Shown in pieces: positions 5,937 through 13,540 of a stretch of DNA of 64,000 nt (position 1 is its first letter; every line of letters begins with the position of its first letter). The position numbers and the translations under genes are program-made. The notes beneath the pieces are model-generated. The model had not been told where the DNA came from. It did not search any database and worked only from the letters and a program-made list of their open reading frames with translations. Origin of the DNA: an uncultured Lachnospiraceae bacterium. Its GTDB lineage: Bacteria; Bacillota; Clostridia; Lachnospirales; Lachnospiraceae. The DNA is taken from NCBI GenBank assembly GCA_949878435.1, contig CATLAK010000014.1:1-64000 (forward strand), written 5' to 3'.

Positions 5937-6575
5937 TCAATTATAATCCATTTTTCCCAAATAAGGAAGAATATTTTCAAAAAGCTGCCTTACCACCGGC
6001 GCCGCCACCTGTCCCCCATAGTAAACGCCCTGCGGGTTATGGATGATGACCAGCGCGATCACCTGCGGATCATCCGCCGGCGCAAAGCCCACAAAGGAAG
6101 CGATATACCTTCCGCTTCCCCTTGGAAGGGTCTGACTGGTCGCCGTCTTTCCCCCTACCCTTGCGCCCTCTACATAGCCATTCTTCCCCGATCCGTTTTC
6201 CACCACCTGCTCTAAGATCATCCGCATGGTGGCAGAGGTTTCCTCTGATACAATACGCTCTTTTACCGGATAAGAGAACCTTTCGATCTGCGTTCCCTCC
6301 CGATTCGAGGTCATAACGGCAAAATGGGGCGTGATTCTCCTTCCCCCATTTACAATCGAGGACGCCGTGGTGATCAGCTGGATAGGGGTGATCTGAAAGG
6401 ACTGCCCGAAGGACACGGTTGCCAGTTCCACCGCCTTCATATCCTCCATCTTATGCATGATCGTCCCCGCCTCCCCCGGCAGATCCACTCCGGTTTTGTT
6501 CAAAAGCCCGAACTGGGTAAAGTACCGGTAATAATTCTCCACTCCCAGCCGCAGCCCCACCGTAATAAACACCGG
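5937..6575 (-). pseudogene. spoVD: 3' half of split SpoVD-like PBP gene
   Basis: Codes the last 212 residues of a class B penicillin-binding protein whose first 364 residues are at 12368-13459. It starts inside the transpeptidase domain directly after the SxN motif (PVFITVGLRLG) and contains the third motif as KTAT in GGKTATSQTLPRG, in place of the common KTGT. It runs intact to a TGA at 5937. There is no convincing ribosome binding site in front of the nearest GTG (6572), so this half is probably not translated alone. Removing the element between the two 8-bp cores fuses both halves exactly in frame into a 576-aa protein. It is therefore an interrupted gene rather than a decayed one: no frameshift or stop is seen in either half. 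Confidence 0.93.
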
Positions 6576-6590
6576 GTTACAGGTGTTTAT
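6565..6590. other. Element attachment junction, left (attL-like)
   Basis: The core GGTTACAG at 6575-6582 repeats at 12367-12374. Around it is a perfect 9-bp inverted repeat, ATAAACACC at 6565-6573 and GGTGTTTAT at 6582-6590, with the host half-site inside the PBP coding sequence and the other half inside the element. Such dyads around a short core are what large serine recombinases bind. The recombinase stop codon is only 15 bp away. Confidence 0.85.
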
Positions 6591-6596
6591 GTAACT

Positions 6597-8147
6597 TTAA
6601 TTCTTTCCTTTATAGGAAACCTTCTCCACGCATCTTCCCTCTTTATCAAAGGCGATCAGCAGTTCCCCATCCTTATGTACCTTTATCTGATGAACCTGCC
6701 TTAAATATTCTTTGATTTTTGCCTTTCTGATTAGTCTCTCTTTTTGGATGACCGCCTCTATCTGTTCAAGACGCGCCTCATAATTATTATATTGCAGACA
6801 GTTCTTTCTTATGCCGTCTATTTTCTCTTCCAGCATCCTCAACCTGCCGTCCATATCCCCACGGCAGTTCTCATAATCCCCGTCGCTGATCACACCGCTT
6901 AACAGTTTTTCCAGCAGCAATTCCTTTCTGGCAAGAAGCCTCCCGCGCTCCTTTTCCAGCTTTTTCATCTCCCCCTCCCCGTTCCCTGCTTCAAACACCC
7001 TCTTAAGCACACGCCTGCTTCCGGCAAGAATCTCCGCTTCCGCTTCTTTACTCCCTTCACAGTGCTGCAGGACTGCCGTCTCCACACAGGTCAAAAGCAC
7101 CTCTTCTGAAAGATGGATATTGTCACATCCATGGGGAGATCTTCCGCCTTCTAAAAAAGCAGCACATTTCCACACCACCTTCTTTTTCCCGCCCGAAGCA
7201 TAACAAGTTCTGTAATAATACCGCCCGCACTCCGTGCACTTAAGCTTCCTGGTCAGTTCGTACTTTCCGTCCCTTTGCGCATTACAATTGCTTCCTCCCA
7301 CCTTTCGCTGCGCCGCCCTTTTTTGCAGGATGGCAGTGACTTCCTCCTGATATTCCTTAGAAACAATGGGCGGAAGCGCACCGTCCATCACGACCCACTC
7401 CTCCCGGGGCACCTCTTCGTACCGTTTGGCATCAAAGTTATAGGTTCTCGTATTCAGGATCATCGTCCCGTGCGCCCTGGGCGTATACAGCATCTTCCTC
7501 CACTGCACCTCCGATATCCGCTGCCCCTTCTTCCCCCTTGCGCCAAGCTCATACAGAATCCGGCTGATGGTGTAAAACCCCTTTCCCTCCTTTGCCAGCG
7601 CAAATGCCATCCTATAATACTCCGCCTCCTCCTCATTGATCTCATACCTGTCCTTCTCCACCTTGTTCCACCCAAACATCTCACAGGTAATGTTGCACCC
7701 GCTCTTCTTCTCCTGCCTCCTTCTGTGGGCATTCTTGATCTTCTTGGAAAGCTCCCTGCTAAAGTCCTCCGCCAAAATTGCTTTGATGCCGGAAATCAGA
7801 TTATCATCGGGGGTATAAAATTTTCCTTCTATATATATATACAATCTCAGCTGATTTTCCGTAAGCCTGCTCAAAAAAAAGTACCAGTCCTTTGCCGAGC
7901 GGGTAAGCCTGTCTATAGACTTAATCATAACAATCTCAAACCTGCCCCTTTCCATATCCTCCAAAAGCCTCTGATACTCGCTGCGCTTATATGCCACCGT
8001 CCCCGTCTGGGATTCCACATACTGCTCTGCAATCTCCCATCCCTTCTTTTCCGCAATCTCCCGGCTCTCAAATACCTGGGTGGCAAGGGCATTTTTCTGA
8101 CTTTCCTCCTCCGTACTGCACCTGTTATAAATCCCCACTCTCACCAT
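6597..8147 (-). CDS. Large serine recombinase of the spoVD element
   Basis: About 516 aa. The N-terminal resolvase domain has the nucleophile Ser11 in VGIYNRCSTEEES and the conserved KSIDRLTRSAKDW helix region. A recombinase domain follows, then a zinc-ribbon with CTECGRYYY and a later Cys pair, and a long charged coiled-coil segment (about residues 380-470). That order is typical of large serine integrases and skin-type excisases. An upstream in-frame ATG at 8216 exists, but the ATG at 8147 starts the resolvase fold and has GGGAG about 6 nt ahead. The gene ends 15 bp from the attachment core and is codirectional with the host operon, with no terminator between its stop and the spoVD 3' half. 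It very likely catalyses insertion and excision of the element. Confidence 0.93.
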   Translation of the reverse strand: MVRVGIYNRCSTEEESQKNALATQVFESREIAEKKGWEIAEQYVESQTGTVAYKRSEYQRLLEDMERGRFEIVMIKSIDRLTRSAKDWYFFLSRLTENQLRLYIYIEGKFYTPDDNLISGIKAILAEDFSRELSKKIKNAHRRRQEKKSGCNITCEMFGWNKVEKDRYEINEEEAEYYRMAFALAKEGKGFYTISRILYELGARGKKGQRISEVQWRKMLYTPRAHGTMILNTRTYNFDAKRYEEVPREEWVVMDGALPPIVSKEYQEEVTAILQKRAAQRKVGGSNCNAQRDGKYELTRKLKCTECGRYYYRTCYASGGKKKVVWKCAAFLEGGRSPHGCDNIHLSEEVLLTCVETAVLQHCEGSKEAEAEILAGSRRVLKRVFEAGNGEGEMKKLEKERGRLLARKELLLEKLLSGVISDGDYENCRGDMDGRLRMLEEKIDGIRKNCLQYNNYEARLEQIEAVIQKERLIRKAKIKEYLRQVHQIKVHKDGELLIAFDKEGRCVEKVSYKGKN

Positions 8148-8319
8148 GCTCCGCTCCCTTCCGCAAAGGGGTACCAGGCTGCAAAGCTCCCGCATCAACA
8201 AGTGACTTTGCCGCATGTAACTCCGCAGGGCTTAGCAAAGCCCGCTCTGCCAAAAGGTCCAGAAGGTGGAGCTGGATGCGCCTTTGCATTTCATTTGTTT
8301 CCATTGTGTTTGATTTCAT
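8125..8319 (-). CDS. Small protein upstream of recombinase
   Basis: 64 aa ORF (MKSNTMETNEMQRR...) with an AGGTG Shine-Dalgarno about 9 nt before the ATG. It overlaps the recombinase start by 23 bp in another frame, suggesting translational coupling. The C-terminal helix pattern LLAERALLSPAELHAAKSLV resembles the short C-terminal (SHOCT-like) helical domains of small proteins found next to serine recombinases. I do not recognise a firm family. Within the element it is the only candidate for a recombination directionality factor. It could also be a chance ORF. Confidence 0.45.
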   Translation of the reverse strand: MKSNTMETNEMQRRIQLHLLDLLAERALLSPAELHAAKSLVDAGALQPGTPLRKGAEHGESGDL

Positions 8320-8343
8320 GGTGAATTTCACCTGTTAGGTTTT

Positions 8344-8371
8344 ATTTTAGTATATTCGGAGAGTGTGTAAA
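8344..8371 (-). promoter_or_regulatory. Candidate promoter of the recombinase
   Basis: On the minus strand a -35-like TTTACA (8366-8371) and -10-like TAAAAT (8344-8349) are 16 bp apart, just ahead of the small ORF and recombinase and beside the arm of hairpin A. Read-through would also serve the spoVD 3' half and mraY onward. Confidence 0.4.
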
Positions 8372-8378
8372 TAGACCG

Positions 8379-8682
8379 CAAGGGTGTTGAGGGAGGGGTG
8401 TATGGGCATAGGGAGGGGCTTTGGGGCACACCATCTCCTTTCCAGTCTCTTCTCAAAATCGGATTTCACTAACAGAATGTGGATAGGTGTTTCAAGGCGG
8501 TCGGGTCGGCTCCAGGCGGCATCCGTGCCGCTTGGAGCCTAAAATCGCCATCCATGGCGATTTTGCCCTACGGTCTCTACATTCTGTAAGTGAAATTACC
8601 GATTTTTCGCAAAGACTGGAAAGGAGATGGTGTGCCCCAAAGCCCCTCCCTATGCCCATACACCCCTCCCTCAACACCCTTG
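8379..8682. repeat. Compound hairpin A
   Basis: 304-bp structure. Outer arms 8379-8448 and 8613-8682 are a perfect 70-bp inverted repeat. Inside lies a nested imperfect repeat (TTTCACTaACAGAATGT type), then two central hairpins: GGCTCC...GGAGCC enclosing GCGGCATCCGTGCCGC, and a 24-bp palindrome AAAATCGCCAT/ATGGCGATTTT. The core is closely related to the reverse complement of hairpin B's core, but the arms are unrelated. ORFs called across it are artefacts of the repeat. It lies between the divergent recombinase and ABC importer, so it is not an ordinary terminator. Confidence 0.9.
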
Positions 8683-8837
8683 CTCCCTCATTCATTTTCT
8701 CTACTTTTAAGAATATCCATTAAAGATGGTACAACTATATTTACCGGACGGAACACCTTATAAATGGAGAGCGACTTTACTCTTAGCATCTCGAGGTGGA
8801 TGAGAAGATGGCTGATATTGGCAGGGATAGCGCAGCC

Positions 8838-9231
8838 TTGGGGTAAGGGGAACTGGTGGGTGGGAGGATGGCAGCGCGGCGGGGCGGCAGTTTGGCGGGT
8901 GCAGAGGGCGGACCGGGTACAGGGGAGGGCACATAATATCGTTTCAAGTCTCTGTGAAAAATCGACAATTTCACTTACAGAATGTAGAAAAACCCAGGGT
9001 AAAATCGCCATGGATGGCGATTTTAGGAGCCAAACGGCACGGATGCCGTCTTGGCTCCGACCCGACCGTCTTGAAACACCTAAATACATTCTGTTAGTGA
9101 AATCCGATTTTGAGAAAAGACTTGAAACGATACTATGTGCCCTCCCCTGTACCCGGTCCGCCCTCTGCACCTGCCAAACTACCGCCCCGCCGCGCTGCCA
9201 TCCTCCCGCCCACCAGCTCCCCTTACCCCAA
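8838..9231. repeat. Compound hairpin B, inverted relative to A
   Basis: 394-bp structure with 114-bp arms (8838-8951 and 9118-9231) that differ at five positions, all transitions. The arms are GC-rich and share no sequence with those of A. The 166-bp core, read as reverse complement, matches the core of A at roughly 87% by hand alignment. The main stem is GGAGCC...GGCTCC where A has GGCTCC...GGAGCC, and a G-C pair in A is an A-T pair here. These paired changes keep the fold. It ends about 50 bp before the importer promoter. Confidence 0.9.
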
Positions 9232-9279
9232 TGCGGACTCCCTCCATAATCCCCCATAATTCCTCCCCCAAAAATAACA

Positions 9280-9308
9280 TTGACTTTAGCACTTTAAAGC
9301 TGTATAAT
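9280..9308 (+). promoter_or_regulatory. Sigma-A-type promoter of the ABC importer
   Basis: TTGACT at 9280-9285 and a perfect TATAAT at 9303-9308 are separated by 17 bp. It stands about 50 bp before the substrate-binding protein start, giving the cargo its own constitutive-looking promoter. I see no T-box or riboswitch in the leader. Confidence 0.85.
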
Positions 9309-9360
9309 TTGATACGCAGTGATTTATCATCATTGTAATATCTTTTTGGGAGGAAACATT

Positions 9361-10407
9361 ATGAAAAAAGCACTTGTATTACTTTTAACCGCAGCCATGG
9401 TAAGCGGTCTTGTTGCATGCGGCAGCCCTGCTGCTGACACGCAGGAAGCATCCACTTCCGAAAGCAGCACAGAAACCACCGAAACAGAATCTGCCGAAAA
9501 CACCGCAGAAGGCTCTGCCGCAGACGGCGGAACTTACAAGGTAGGCATCTGCCAGCTCGTACAGCACGAAGCATTAGATGCTGCTACAGAGGGATTTATG
9601 GATGCACTGAAGGAAGAACTTGGCGATCAGGTCACCTTCGACATCCAGAATGCGCAGGGTGATTCCAATACCTGTTCTACCATCATCAACAGCTTTATTT
9701 CCAGCGATACCGACTTAATTCTTGCCAATGCGACTCCTGCCCTGCAGGCTGCAGCAGCAGGAACCAACGAAATTCCCATTCTCGGAACTTCCGTTACAGA
9801 ATACGGCGTGGCGCTCGATATCGATAACTTCACTGGAACCGTAGGCGGAAATATTTCCGGTACATCCGATCTTGCTCCCCTTGACGGTCAGGCTGATATG
9901 CTGGCAGAATTATTCCCTGATGCAAAGACGGTAGGTCTGATCTACTGTTCCGCTGAAGCAAATTCACAGTATCAGGTGGATACCATCAAAACATCCTTAG
10001 AAGCAAAAGGCTACACCTGTGAATACTATTCTTTCTCAGATTCCAACGATATTTCCGCCGTTGTGACAAATGCCGCTTCTTCCGTTGATGTAATCTACGT
10101 TCCTACAGACAACACAGCGGCTTCCAACGCAGAACTGATCAACAACATCTGTCTTCCTGCCGGCGTACCGGTAGTTGCAGGCGAAGAAGGAATCTGTGCG
10201 GGATGCGGCGTGGCTACTTTATCGATCAGCTACTATGATATCGGTGTGGCAACCGGCAAAATGGCTGCAAAAATCCTTGCCGAGGGCGCTGATATCTCCA
10301 CTATGCCCATCGAATATGCACCTACCTTTACCAAGAAATATAATGCAGCAAACTGTGAAGCATTGAATATCACCGTTCCCGATGATTACGTGGCAATCGG
10401 CGAATAA
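9361..10407 (+). CDS. ABC importer substrate-binding lipoprotein
   Basis: 348 aa secreted lipoprotein. The signal peptide ends in the lipobox LVAC with lipidated Cys20, followed by a Ser/Thr/Glu-rich linker and a type I periplasmic-binding fold beginning YKVGICQLVQHEALD. It belongs to the ABC_sub_bind group (COG2984-like), some of whose members (TrpX) serve aromatic amino acid uptake; the substrate here is not readable from sequence. The ATG is chosen for the GGGAGGAA Shine-Dalgarno 5 nt upstream and the Lys-rich signal start; an earlier in-frame ATG at 9319 lies only 10 bp past the -10 box. It is the first gene of the element's cargo operon. Confidence 0.93.
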   Translation: MKKALVLLLTAAMVSGLVACGSPAADTQEASTSESSTETTETESAENTAEGSAADGGTYKVGICQLVQHEALDAATEGFMDALKEELGDQVTFDIQNAQGDSNTCSTIINSFISSDTDLILANATPALQAAAAGTNEIPILGTSVTEYGVALDIDNFTGTVGGNISGTSDLAPLDGQADMLAELFPDAKTVGLIYCSAEANSQYQVDTIKTSLEAKGYTCEYYSFSDSNDISAVVTNAASSVDVIYVPTDNTAASNAELINNICLPAGVPVVAGEEGICAGCGVATLSISYYDIGVATGKMAAKILAEGADISTMPIEYAPTFTKKYNAANCEALNITVPDDYVAIGE

Positions 10408-10440
10408 TCGCCGGCAAAGCGGTTTATTGTTTCATAACCT

Positions 10441-10476
10441 ACAGCGGGAGAATTTATTCTCTCGCTGCTTTTGTTA
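10441..10476 (+). terminator. Attenuating hairpin after the binding protein
   Basis: AGCGGGAGAA pairs with TTCTCTCGCT (one bulge or mismatch) and is followed by a T-rich run. Standing between binding-protein and permease genes, it probably lowers expression of the membrane components relative to the lipoprotein. Confidence 0.6.
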
Positions 10477-10533
10477 AATTTAAAACAAGTGCACATCTAT
10501 CAGTTTACAAATTTTGGATAAACGGAGGTAATC

Positions 10534-11466
10534 ATGAATATCTTACACTTACTAAATTCCATGCCGGGGACCCTTGCCCAAGGGCTTATATGGGGCATCA
10601 CGGCAATTGGTATCTACATTACATACCGGATTCTGGACGTTGCCGATCTGACCGTTGACGGATCTCTTTGTACCGGCGGCGCTGTCTGCATCATGATGAT
10701 GGTTTCCGGACAGAATGTTTTTATTTCCATGCTTGCAGCCACTTTGGCAGGTATGGTCACCGGACTGGTAACCGGGCTATTTCACACCTTTATGGGAATC
10801 CCCGCTATTTTAGCAGGTATTCTTACCCAATTAGGTCTTTACTCCGTAAACCTAAAGATCATGGGAAAAGCCAATCAGGCAATCAATGTCGATAAATACA
10901 ATCTTTTAGTTTGTTCCAGATATATTAAGGGCGTACCCTTCTACCAAAATACGATTTTTGTGGTTGCCGTCTGCACCCTGATACTGGTAGCGCTTCTTTA
11001 CTGGTTCTTCGGCACAGAGCTTGGATGTGCCCTGCGGGCAACGGGATGCAACGGCAATATGTCCCGCGCCCAGGGAATCAACACGAACTTCTCCAAGGTG
11101 CTGGGACTGATGATCTCCAACGGTCTCGTGGGACTCTCCGGCGCACTGCTTGCCCAGTATCAGGGATTTGCCGATATCAACATGGGACGCGGCGCCATCG
11201 TCATAGGACTTGCCGCGGTCATTATCGGCGAAGCTGTTTTTAGCCGGATTTTCCACAATTTTGCCCTTAAACTGATCAGTGTCGCCTTAGGCTCCATTCT
11301 CTACTACATCGTGCTTCAGACGGTGGTATGGATGGGAATCGTAGACACCGACAATCTGAAATTGCTGACCGCTTTGATCGTTGCCGTCTTCCTTGCCATT
11401 CCCTACTGGAAGAGCAAATATTTTAGCAAAGCCATCGTAAAGAAAGGAGGCAGAACCAATGCTTGA
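10534..11466 (+). CDS. ABC importer permease
   Basis: 310 aa with about eight hydrophobic segments, of the branched-chain-type (BPD_transp_2) permease family paired with ABC_sub_bind proteins (COG4120-like). Recognisable stretches include YRILDVADLTVDGSL near the N-terminus and GCALRATGCNGNMSRAQGIN, the cytoplasmic loop that contacts the ATPase. Shine-Dalgarno CGGAGGTAATC precedes the ATG. It follows the lipoprotein gene after a 126-bp gap containing a hairpin and overlaps the ATPase gene by 8 bp. Confidence 0.92.
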   Translation: MNILHLLNSMPGTLAQGLIWGITAIGIYITYRILDVADLTVDGSLCTGGAVCIMMMVSGQNVFISMLAATLAGMVTGLVTGLFHTFMGIPAILAGILTQLGLYSVNLKIMGKANQAINVDKYNLLVCSRYIKGVPFYQNTIFVVAVCTLILVALLYWFFGTELGCALRATGCNGNMSRAQGINTNFSKVLGLMISNGLVGLSGALLAQYQGFADINMGRGAIVIGLAAVIIGEAVFSRIFHNFALKLISVALGSILYYIVLQTVVWMGIVDTDNLKLLTALIVAVFLAIPYWKSKYFSKAIVKKGGRTNA

Positions 11467-12253
11467 AATTAAAAATGTCACCAAAGTTTTTAACCCTGGA
11501 ACCGTAAATGAAAAACTTGCTTTAGACAATTTCTCCTTAACCCTTGAAGATGGCGATTTTGTCACCGTCATCGGCGGAAACGGCGCCGGGAAATCAACCA
11601 TGATGAATGCCATTGCCGGCGCATGGACGGTGGATGCCGGTCAGATTTTGATCGACGGCATCGATGTCACCAAACTTCCTGAGCACAAGCGTGCCAAATT
11701 CTTAGGACGTGTCTTCCAAGATCCCATGACCGGCACCGCCGCAACCATGGGAATCGAAGAAAATCTTGCACTGGCAAAACGTCGGGGCAACACCCGTTTC
11801 CTGACACCGGGCATCACCAAAAAAGAACGGGAAGAATACAAAGAACTCCTAAAAATACTGGATTTAGGACTAGAAACCCGTCTCACCTCCAAGGTAGGCC
11901 TTCTATCCGGCGGACAGCGCCAGGCGCTGACGCTGCTGATGGCAACTCTCAAGAAGCCTAAACTCCTCCTTTTGGACGAGCACACCGCTGCCCTTGACCC
12001 CAAGACCGCGGCAAAAGTCTTAGAAACCACGGAATACATCGTCCAAAAAGATCACCTGACCACCCTTATGATCACCCACAACATGAAAGACGCCATCGTC
12101 CACGGAAACCGCCTGATCATGCTGATGGACGGAAAAATCATCCTGGATATCAAGGGAGAAGAAAAGAAACGCCTTACAGTCAAAGACCTCCTACAGAAAT
12201 TTGAAGCCGCCAGCGGCGAAGAATTTACCAACGACCAGGCCATCTTAGGATAA
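11459..12253 (+). CDS. ABC importer ATP-binding protein
   Basis: 264 aa nucleotide-binding subunit. Walker A GGNGAGKST, signature LSGGQRQAL, Walker B LLLLDEHTAALD and the switch histidine in MITHNM are all present, so it should hydrolyse ATP. AAAGGAGG lies upstream of the ATG, and the start overlaps the permease stop. This completes a binding protein-permease-ATPase set of the TrpXYZ-like type. It is the last gene before the right attachment site; a weak ACCAGCC/GGCTGGT hairpin (about 12259-12279) without a T-run follows it. Confidence 0.93.
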   Translation: MLEIKNVTKVFNPGTVNEKLALDNFSLTLEDGDFVTVIGGNGAGKSTMMNAIAGAWTVDAGQILIDGIDVTKLPEHKRAKFLGRVFQDPMTGTAATMGIEENLALAKRRGNTRFLTPGITKKEREEYKELLKILDLGLETRLTSKVGLLSGGQRQALTLLMATLKKPKLLLLDEHTAALDPKTAAKVLETTEYIVQKDHLTTLMITHNMKDAIVHGNRLIMLMDGKIILDIKGEEKKRLTVKDLLQKFEAASGEEFTNDQAILG

Positions 12254-12354
12254 GGAGTGACCAGCCTCGGAGGGCTGGTAAGGCGGCTGCGACACAGCAC
12301 AGGAAGCAGGCTAATACAGGCGACAGCGTATTATGTCGTTTCGGTTTTGCAGTT

Positions 12355-12380
12355 CCGTAAATACTAGGTTACAGCTGTTC
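12355..12380. other. Element attachment junction, right (attR-like)
   Basis: Second copy of the core GGTTACAG at 12367-12374. The element side reads CGTAAATACTA, an imperfect match to the half-site ATAAACACC found at the other junction; the host side reads CTGTTCAT. The reconstructed element circle would carry CGTAAATACTA-core-GTGTTTATG, a dyad with 9 of 12 outer positions matching. Confidence 0.82.
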
Positions 12381-13459
12381 ATAGTCGCCTGTACAAAGTC
12401 CTCCGCCCCATGCCCCGCGATCTTATGGCATCGTATCCTCCGATCCTCCACCATAATGAACCCGGGGCAGCTGAATTGATCCTCCGTGGTGACCACGCCG
12501 CCCTCCAAACCTGCAGCTGCCGTCACGATCTTAAATGTGGATCCCGGCTCATAAGTGTCACTGATGCACCCATTCCGCCACATTCCATTTAATAACTCCT
12601 GTTTCTTTTCTTCTGTAAGCCCTGCGGTATCCGTCTCTTCCGGCAGGGTATAGGGCTGATTTAAATCAAACTCAGGCACATCCACCATTGCCATCAGCTC
12701 TCCATTCTGGGGATTCATGACAATGATAGACACCCGGTCCGCCTGTTTGGTCTCCATCACCTGCTTTGCAAGCTGGGTGGCATAACTTTGAATATTCATA
12801 TCCAGGCTCAGATAAAGATCATTTCCGGCAATCGGTTCCACCCTTTCCTCTCCCGCCGCGTCAAGCTCCACCCCTTTTGCATCGGTAATGGTAAGGATCA
12901 TGCCGTCTTCCCCTTTTAAGTATTCTTCATATTTTACCTCCAGACCGATGATTCCCTGGTTATCGCCTCCCGTAAATCCCAGCACTTTCGATGCGAGAGA
13001 ATCATAGGGATAATAACGCTTGTAATCTTCATCCACCTTGACGCCCTCCAGATTATAAGCCCTGATGGCGTCCCCGATTTCTTTCTCCACATTGCTTTTA
13101 ATTCTTTCTATAGAGGAATACTTTTCCACCCTCCTGCGCACATAATCCTCCGAAAGATCAAGTTCCTTACAAAGGACTTCCACGATCCTGTCTGGATCCT
13201 TGATCTGGTTGTGTATGACAGAAATCGTACAGACGGTCTTATTATCTGCAATGACGGTTCCGTTCACATCCAGTATCCTTCCTCTTGCCGCTTTAATGCT
13301 CCTCTCCCTTTCGTGAAGTTCCTTTGCCTTTTCTGTATAGTGGTCTGACTGAAAAATCATCAGATAGACCAGCCTTCCTGCAAGAATGGTGAATATGACC
13401 AGGCAGGCAAAAAAAATCGTGACGATCTTTTTTCTGTTATAGGTTTTGTTCTTGACCAT
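12368..13459 (-). pseudogene. spoVD: 5' half of split SpoVD-like PBP gene
   Basis: First 364 residues of a class B PBP: basic N-terminus, one membrane segment (about 11-35), a non-catalytic dimerization domain, and the start of the transpeptidase domain with the active-site STFK at 307-310 (EPGSTFKIVTA) and SCN at 362-364. As it stands the frame runs past the junction into the element for 19 more codons and stops at 12311, a product lacking the KTG-type motif and surely inactive. An ATG at 13471 also exists, but the ATG at 13459 has TGAGG 6 nt ahead. Its place between a divisional-type PBP and mraY matches spoVD, the spore-cortex PBP of Bacillus; the name rests on that position. Confidence 0.92.
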
Positions 13460-13460
13460 A

Positions 13461-13512
13461 AAAAACCTCATAGAAAAGGTATTATTATAATCTATTACCG
13501 ATTCTATGAGGT
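13461..13512 (-). promoter_or_regulatory. Hairpin covering the spoVD ribosome binding site
   Basis: On the minus strand AACCTCATAGAA pairs over 12 bp with TTCTATGAGGTT across a 26-nt AT-rich loop, and TTTT follows. The TGAGG Shine-Dalgarno of the spoVD start is in the right arm. It may act as a terminator after the upstream PBP gene, as a block on translation of spoVD, or both. Confidence 0.65.
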
Positions 13513-13540
13513 TATTCTATCAAGATGATTCTTTATGCGC

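Follow-up and report, generated by a model that had tools for sequence, protein, structure and literature searches.

Interrupted sporulation genes have been described for sigK, spsM, spoVFB, spoVR, gerE and yabG (PMC5025042, PMC5595907, PMC4191935, PMC10747680). We report here an interruption of spoVD, a class B penicillin-binding protein (PBP) gene of the dcw cluster, in a 64-kb window (the whole stretch of 64,000 nucleotides analysed, from contig CATLAK010000014.1 of an uncultured Lachnospiraceae bacterium, which is part of a draft genome of 51 contigs). The two parts of the gene are separated by an element encoding a large serine recombinase, and the comparisons given below make it likely that this is a skin-like developmental element residing in a sporulation class B PBP gene. 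A search of the open-access literature, which is not the whole literature, found no natural intervening element in spoVD, and within those bounds the original prediction's statement that no excisable element had been described in this gene holds.

In the skin element of Clostridioides difficile sigK, as described with its CD1231 recombinase and CD1234 recombination directionality factor (PMC5025042), a large serine recombinase gene stands immediately upstream of the 3' part of the sporulation gene, as it does here. The same account gives two further points of likeness, namely a small partner protein, for which we have a candidate, and an in-frame rejoining of the host gene, which is predicted for spoVD; it also places excision under sigma-E, and a sigma-E-like promoter is predicted in part of the spoVD carriers. 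The two differ in that the skin as described comprises 19 genes within a sigma factor gene, whereas the spoVD element interrupts a transpeptidase gene and measures 5.8 kb in the window, has a small open reading frame (ORF) directly before the recombinase and carries a transporter as cargo. Moreover, sigK is split in C. difficile according to that report, while the best match to the sigK model in the window's genome is an uninterrupted ORF.

The gin element in gerE of Bacillus cereus ATCC10987 is likewise reported as a non-phage element with serine recombination, a short shared core and a rebuilt sporulation gene; however, it is given as 28.6 kb with 31 genes and three recombinase genes (PMC5595907), as against 4.8-8.0 kb and a single spoVD-linked recombinase here. 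The elements vfbin in spoVFB, vrin in spoVR and SP-beta in spsM (PMC4191935), and yin in yabG (PMC10747680), are also recombinase elements within sporulation genes, but are described as prophages or prophage-like and occupy other host genes; yin is presented as unique to one strain, whereas the spoVD element extends across a genus and into two genomes of other genera. An insertion in spoVD itself, spoVD::ICEBs1 of B. subtilis, is described as a laboratory secondary integration of a conjugative element with undetectable excision, and is not a conserved intervening element (PMC3715440). We regard the spoVD element as a new member of the skin-like kind, and spoVD as a new host gene for one: it is small, has no phage structural genes in the window, differs in cargo between genera and is found in about half of its genus.

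Anatomy of the split gene and its element

The locus comprises the following features, in coordinates of the window.

12369..13459, minus strand: 5' (N-terminal) part of the split spoVD, with STFK (from ORFs, junction search, domains and the joined frame)
5937..6576, minus strand: 3' (C-terminal) part of the split spoVD, which contains KTAT and lies immediately upstream of mraY
6577..12368, no strand assigned: intervening element, 5,792 bp (from the crossover alignment and the uninterrupted genes of relatives)
6575..6582, plus strand: GGTTACAG, recombinase-side junction, attR in the sense of the gene; predicted crossover TT at 6577-6578
12367..12374, plus strand: GGTTACAG, N-half junction, attL in the sense of the gene; predicted crossover TT at 12369-12370
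6597..8147, minus strand: large serine recombinase, 516 amino acids, with Resolvase, Recombinase and zinc ribbon domains and the NRCSTEE motif (domain and profile searches)
8125..8331, minus strand: small ORF overlapping the recombinase start, candidate recombination directionality factor (ORF comparison)
9361..10407, plus strand: cargo, TrpX-like substrate-binding lipoprotein of an ABC transporter (domains; TrpX model score below cut-off)
10534..11466, plus strand: cargo, ABC permease, BPD_transp_2 (domain search)
11459..12253, plus strand: cargo, ABC ATPase (domain search)

According to domain searches, the N half contains the dimerisation domain of the PBP, and the transpeptidase domain begins in the N half and is completed in the C half. 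In the unexcised state, the frame of the N half continues into the element as far as a stop at 12311; joined at the shared core, the two halves form a single 576-codon open frame, in which STFK lies at 307, SCN at 362 and KTAT at 507. The 8-mer GGTTACAG occurs in the window on the plus strand at 6575 and 12367, with no other copy on either strand, and the recombinase gene ends at 6597, 14 bp from it. The anatomy put forward in the original prediction, namely two class B PBP halves set 5.8 kb apart, the same 8-mer at both junctions, a recombinase gene adjoining one of them and the frame restored by joining, is therefore borne out; the three-gene ABC transporter with its TrpX-like binding protein was absent from it. 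The best NCBIfam match of both halves and of the neighbouring 746-residue PBP is TIGR02214 (spoVD_pbp), with scores of 321.8 and 235.3 for the halves, each scored singly, and 400.1 for the neighbour, all of them below the curated cut-off of 688 bits.

An alignment of attL and attR from 19 split loci (17 of the window's genus and two of other genera, described below) located the crossover. The stretch shared by attL and attR ranges from 2 to 17 bp per locus pair, and the positions common to the two over all loci are AA alone, which falls within the AAC codon of the SxN asparagine. Serine recombinases cut with a 2-bp stagger, and hence an AA core is what the mechanism predicts. Joining at this AA yields SCNPVF in 19/19 loci, while the unexcised N half keeps SCN in ten and reads SCK in nine. 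The deduced attP is more inverted-repeat-like than attB in 18 of the 19 (7-14 versus 6-9 of 15 positions). Over the split loci, the element varies in length from 4.8 to 8.0 kb.

The Resolvase, Recombinase and zinc ribbon domains are shared by the recombinases of the window and of the two other genera. The NRCSTEE motif, whose serine we take to be the catalytic one, is present in 16 of the 17 carriers of the genus, the recombinase of the remaining one (G026) being a fragment at a contig end. A scan of seven ORFs of the window element against PHROGs assigned the recombinase to the phage-integrase family phrog_95 and the ATPase to ABC-transporter families, and named no phage structural or replication family among them. 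A small ORF precedes the recombinase in each of the 18 loci inspected, which comprise 16 carriers and the two loci of other genera (the contig of G026 is broken); it matched no Pfam family and, in the window, no PHROGs family. We propose it as a candidate directionality factor on the model of CD1234 in the C. difficile skin, although it could also be a regulator. The element further contains two TwoAYGGAY RNA motifs on opposite strands, at 8952-9117 (plus) and 8449-8612 (minus), both well above the Rfam gathering score; these two RNAs account for the long inverted repeats inside it.

Distribution, selection and history

A search of 37 genomes of the window's genus with the C half (E<=1e-60) detected it in 35, split in 17 and uninterrupted in 18. 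G012 and G013 have no SpoVD C-half match at this threshold; both of them do have spoIVA. All 17 splits lie at the same codon and are caused by a related recombinase-transporter element, with the transporter ATPase on the N-half side in 17/17. Both halves and the element are on a single contig in 15 of the carrier assemblies, and in the other two (G026 and G029) it is divided between two contigs. The comparison with intact spoVD of relatives that the original prediction had proposed thus provided 18 uninterrupted genes with the predicted empty site present: at the junction, 17 of them read MNSCNPVFITVG like the joined gene, and that of G025, whose start is truncated at a contig end, reads KNSCNPVFITVG. 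That these 18 relatives of the same genus keep the same gene uninterrupted argues against the split arrangement being due to chance.

Beyond the genus set, a search of GTDB contigs returned 11 recombinase loci, ten of which (Lachnospiraceae, Parablautia muri and an uncultured bacterium; records that overlap partly with the 17 carrier genomes) have the same anatomy, the eleventh being a distant recombinase from another phylum. Cultured carriers include Parablautia muri D42-62 (locus L048) and strain 1XD21-87 (L043). Seven further recombinase matches of lower similarity included none beside PBP halves. Among 397 genomes of the family, four had recombinase matches at E<=1e-100, two in the window's genus and one each in two other genera. 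In the latter two genomes (G100 and G158; loci L155 and L156), spoVD is split at the same codon by an element with a related recombinase and other cargo, which comprises an FGGY kinase, FAD oxidoreductases and a VanW-like protein in one locus, and an Hsp70 and a chemoreceptor in the second. Among the matches listed, there are hence at least two split spoVD loci in the family outside the genus. The sole genus mate of G158 (G432) has no recombinase match. A short frame in G039 was considered as another split and rejected, its SCN motif being uninterrupted.

The original prediction had also held that neither half is decayed, and the carriers uphold this. No stop or frameshift was found in the C half in 17 carriers or in the N half in 15, and the two remaining N halves match over their full length. 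Ratios of nonsynonymous to synonymous substitution rates (dN/dS; Nei-Gojobori) were taken from pairs with dS < 1.5, most pairs being saturated at synonymous sites. The median for the N half is 0.025 in split and 0.032 in intact genomes (from 9/105 and 7/153 pairs, with the N halves of G026 and G029 left out), that for the C half 0.042 and 0.060 (83/136 and 66/153 pairs), and that for the recombinase 0.114 (8/136 pairs). By this measure purifying selection acts on each half as strongly as on the intact genes, and, as synonymous sites are near saturation, the split is old. Distances between the element genes correlate with host-gene distances, with a Mantel r of 0.89 for the recombinase and 0.91 for the transporter, neither being equalled in any of 5,000 permutations (13 of the 17 carriers were used, G022 and G034 being without mraY and G026 and G029 left out).

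On the genus tree, the label split or intact changes five times (3-5 times in bootstrap trees), as against a mean of 12 for shuffled labels. By our reading, the element may have been gained once at the base of a clade of 28 genomes, lost three times and regained in G034. Under this history or one of losses alone, the uninterrupted genes are scarless and the presence of the element is patchy. A near relative of the element's transporter is present at another chromosomal site in nine intact genomes. The eight such places compared (L146-L151, L153 and L154) fall into about three chromosomal sites, the first with neighbours partly common to G008, G015, G016 and G025, the second shared by G018 and G024, and the third by G020 and G031. 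The transporter thus also exists as an ordinary chromosomal operon, which the element seems to have taken up.

Proposed excision in sporulation and the alternatives

In B. subtilis, spoVD is reported to be a sigma-E gene required for the cortex (PMC517825), and spores without SpoVD are described as having none (PMC3906833). SpoIVA was found in 37/37 genomes of the genus (36 over the cut-off), and of 397 family genomes 246 have both the SpoVD C half and SpoIVA, 5 and 11 have one without the other, and 135 have neither (Fisher p 2.6e-85, in a test that ignores phylogeny). The regions upstream of spoIVA in the genus contain ATA-N15/16-CATA[CT]ATT in 19/20. A sigma-E-like promoter model trained on these sites and applied to the 110 bp preceding the small ORF gave p<0.05 in 8/16 recombinase operons and in 0/15 control regions before the transporter; six of the sites lie at -54 to -56 from the small ORF and that of G021 at -69. 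Upstream of spoVD itself, AATAAC-14-AATA[AG]ATT is found in most split and intact genomes, with p<0.05 under the model in 5/32, which is suggestive of a sigma-E-like promoter. The corresponding sites in the window are the following.

8349..8374, minus strand: counterpart of the relatives' sigma-E-like promoter of the small-ORF/recombinase operon, matched by a relaxed post hoc pattern only and not by the spoIVA-trained model
13489..13516, minus strand: AATAAC-14-AATAGATT, candidate for a sigma-E-like promoter of spoVD, conserved in most relatives, both split and intact

The region 13460-13516, just before the spoVD start, also contains a conserved inverted repeat, AACCTCATAGAA ... TTCTATGAGGTT, in most of the split and intact genomes read, possibly an RNA control element.

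The original prediction likened the arrangement to the sigK-skin design. The relatives with an empty site, the frames restored in 19/19 loci, the purifying selection, the scarless patchy distribution and the co-occurrence with spoIVA, all of them comparative in nature, support this likeness. In such a scheme, the element would in growing cells interrupt the gene at the SxN asparagine codon of the active site, so that the whole enzyme could not be made. During sporulation, the large serine recombinase would recombine attL with attR at the 2-bp AA core, probably assisted by the product of the small ORF just upstream of it; the element of roughly 5-8 kb would leave as a circle and spoVD would be rejoined in frame. 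This would take place in the mother cell, before or during cortex synthesis, as suggested by sigma-E-like promoters in front of spoVD and, in several relatives, of the recombinase operon. As the mother cell dies, the integrated form would be passed on through the forespore, and the transporter genes would be passengers kept by the germ line.

Several observations weigh against this interpretation, in addition to the disregard of phylogeny in the co-occurrence test. No circle junction was found in the 37 genus assemblies at up to two mismatches, a search that would miss a more divergent junction: the pattern matched a single attL site per carrier in all 17 and an unrelated two-mismatch site in G034, and a reversed pattern, used as a control, had one match in G019 and one in G030. 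Viral contigs likewise contained no circle junction, and the 17 carrier assemblies no second, joined copy of the gene. Neither an empty site nor a circle was found in the carrier assemblies, so that excision in living cells, when and in which cell it would occur, and what the small ORF would do are inferred from the comparisons; the integrated form alone fits assemblies of vegetative DNA, but is no proof. With regard to the promoters, the best model site of G003 lies elsewhere, the model gives p 0.54 and 0.59 for the window's own genome and its nearest relative, strict patterns match in 2/16 (sigma-E) and 0/16 (sigma-K), and the relaxed pattern, present in 10/16 against a shuffled mean of 0.20, was chosen post hoc, once an alignment of the sequences had shown a (C/A)ATATATT box. 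The small ORF is weakly similar between the 18 loci (mean column identity 27%, two invariant columns), and was chosen among several ORFs with a start set by us. The attP of G034 is less symmetric than its attB. A history of losses alone costs one step more than the shortest, and the tree does not separate loss from gain; since the shortest history includes a regain, our confidence is slightly lowered. Lastly, C. difficile PBPs, including dcw-encoded ones, apparently have roles in sporulation-specific or asymmetric division, as far as the reports on them go (PMC10693644, PMC12713402), and late excision would not fit if SpoVD acted as early as asymmetric division here.

Of the alternatives, the one that survives best is an ordinary site-specific mobile element with its att site in spoVD, which would excise at low frequency at any time and without developmental control, only cells that have lost it finishing the cortex. 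Its patchy presence, with losses and perhaps regains, the other cargo in two other genera and the match of the recombinase to phrog_95 would all suit such an element. However, spores would then be without the element and each cycle would eliminate the split form, yet this form is kept in 17 genomes of different species. The divergence of recombinase and host in step in 13 carriers, and the small ORF before the recombinase in 18 loci with a sigma-E-like promoter in part of them, also speak against this explanation, which we consider unlikely. A fixed insertion, with spoVD broken and dispensable in the carriers, would agree with the integrated state of 17/17 carrier assemblies, none with a joined copy; but neither half has decayed, dN/dS is as low as in intact genes with synonymous sites near saturation, and spoIVA is present in all 37 genomes, which makes it very improbable.

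Slightly less probable still is a two-piece enzyme, the halves being translated separately and then assembling. In its favour are the conservation of the two halves, the added tail at the end of the N half and, in four of the 17 C halves (G026, G032, G033 and G034), a candidate in-frame start with a sequence resembling a ribosome-binding site. On the other hand, the tail varies in sequence between genomes, the unexcised N half reads SCK in 9/19 loci and so is without the SxN asparagine, and 13/17 C halves are devoid of such a start near the junction, two of them (G005 and G009) having no in-frame start of any kind before the 11th codon; the relatives, accordingly, do not present the halves as independent genes. 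An assembly artefact, conceivable for a draft of 51 contigs, is negligible in view of the same structure in 17 genus assemblies (15 on one contig) and in ten named contig records, partly of the same genomes.

If the element is indeed a developmental one, DNA excision from a split transpeptidase gene could gate the building of the spore wall itself. We put forward more tentatively, as a possibility short of an even chance, that the spoVD elements form a domesticated and mostly vertical family acting as a DNA-level timer of spore-wall synthesis and surviving because it stores exchangeable metabolic cargo for the germ line. If so, a split at the SxN codon would tie cortex cross-linking to sigma-E-driven recombination in the mother cell, in bacteria with an apparently unsplit sigK, and the stored cargo, namely a tryptophan-type transporter, a glycerol-type kinase with oxidoreductases, or a chaperone with a chemoreceptor, would be discarded by the dying mother cell. 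The genus offers natural carriers alongside element-free relatives, in which function, loss and cargo exchange are directly comparable. The system also provides a compact recombinase, its AA core defined by sequence, together with a small ORF as candidate directionality factor.

Neighbouring genes and sigK-model matches

The dcw cluster of the window lies on the minus strand and comprises mraZ, mraW, ftsL, the 746-residue class B PBP, the split PBP, mraY, murD, an ftsW/spoVE-type gene, murA and divIB (from the ORF list, most names being our own assignments). The two best matches to the sigK model in the window's genome are uninterrupted frames of 216 and 265 amino acids, both below the cut-off, as in all 37 genomes, and we take them for sigK and sigE. 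The region before the sigK-model ORF (around GTCATAGAATA..TAAAAATGACTTTGGGGGCGC; L215-L234) is highly conserved over the 20 genomes read.

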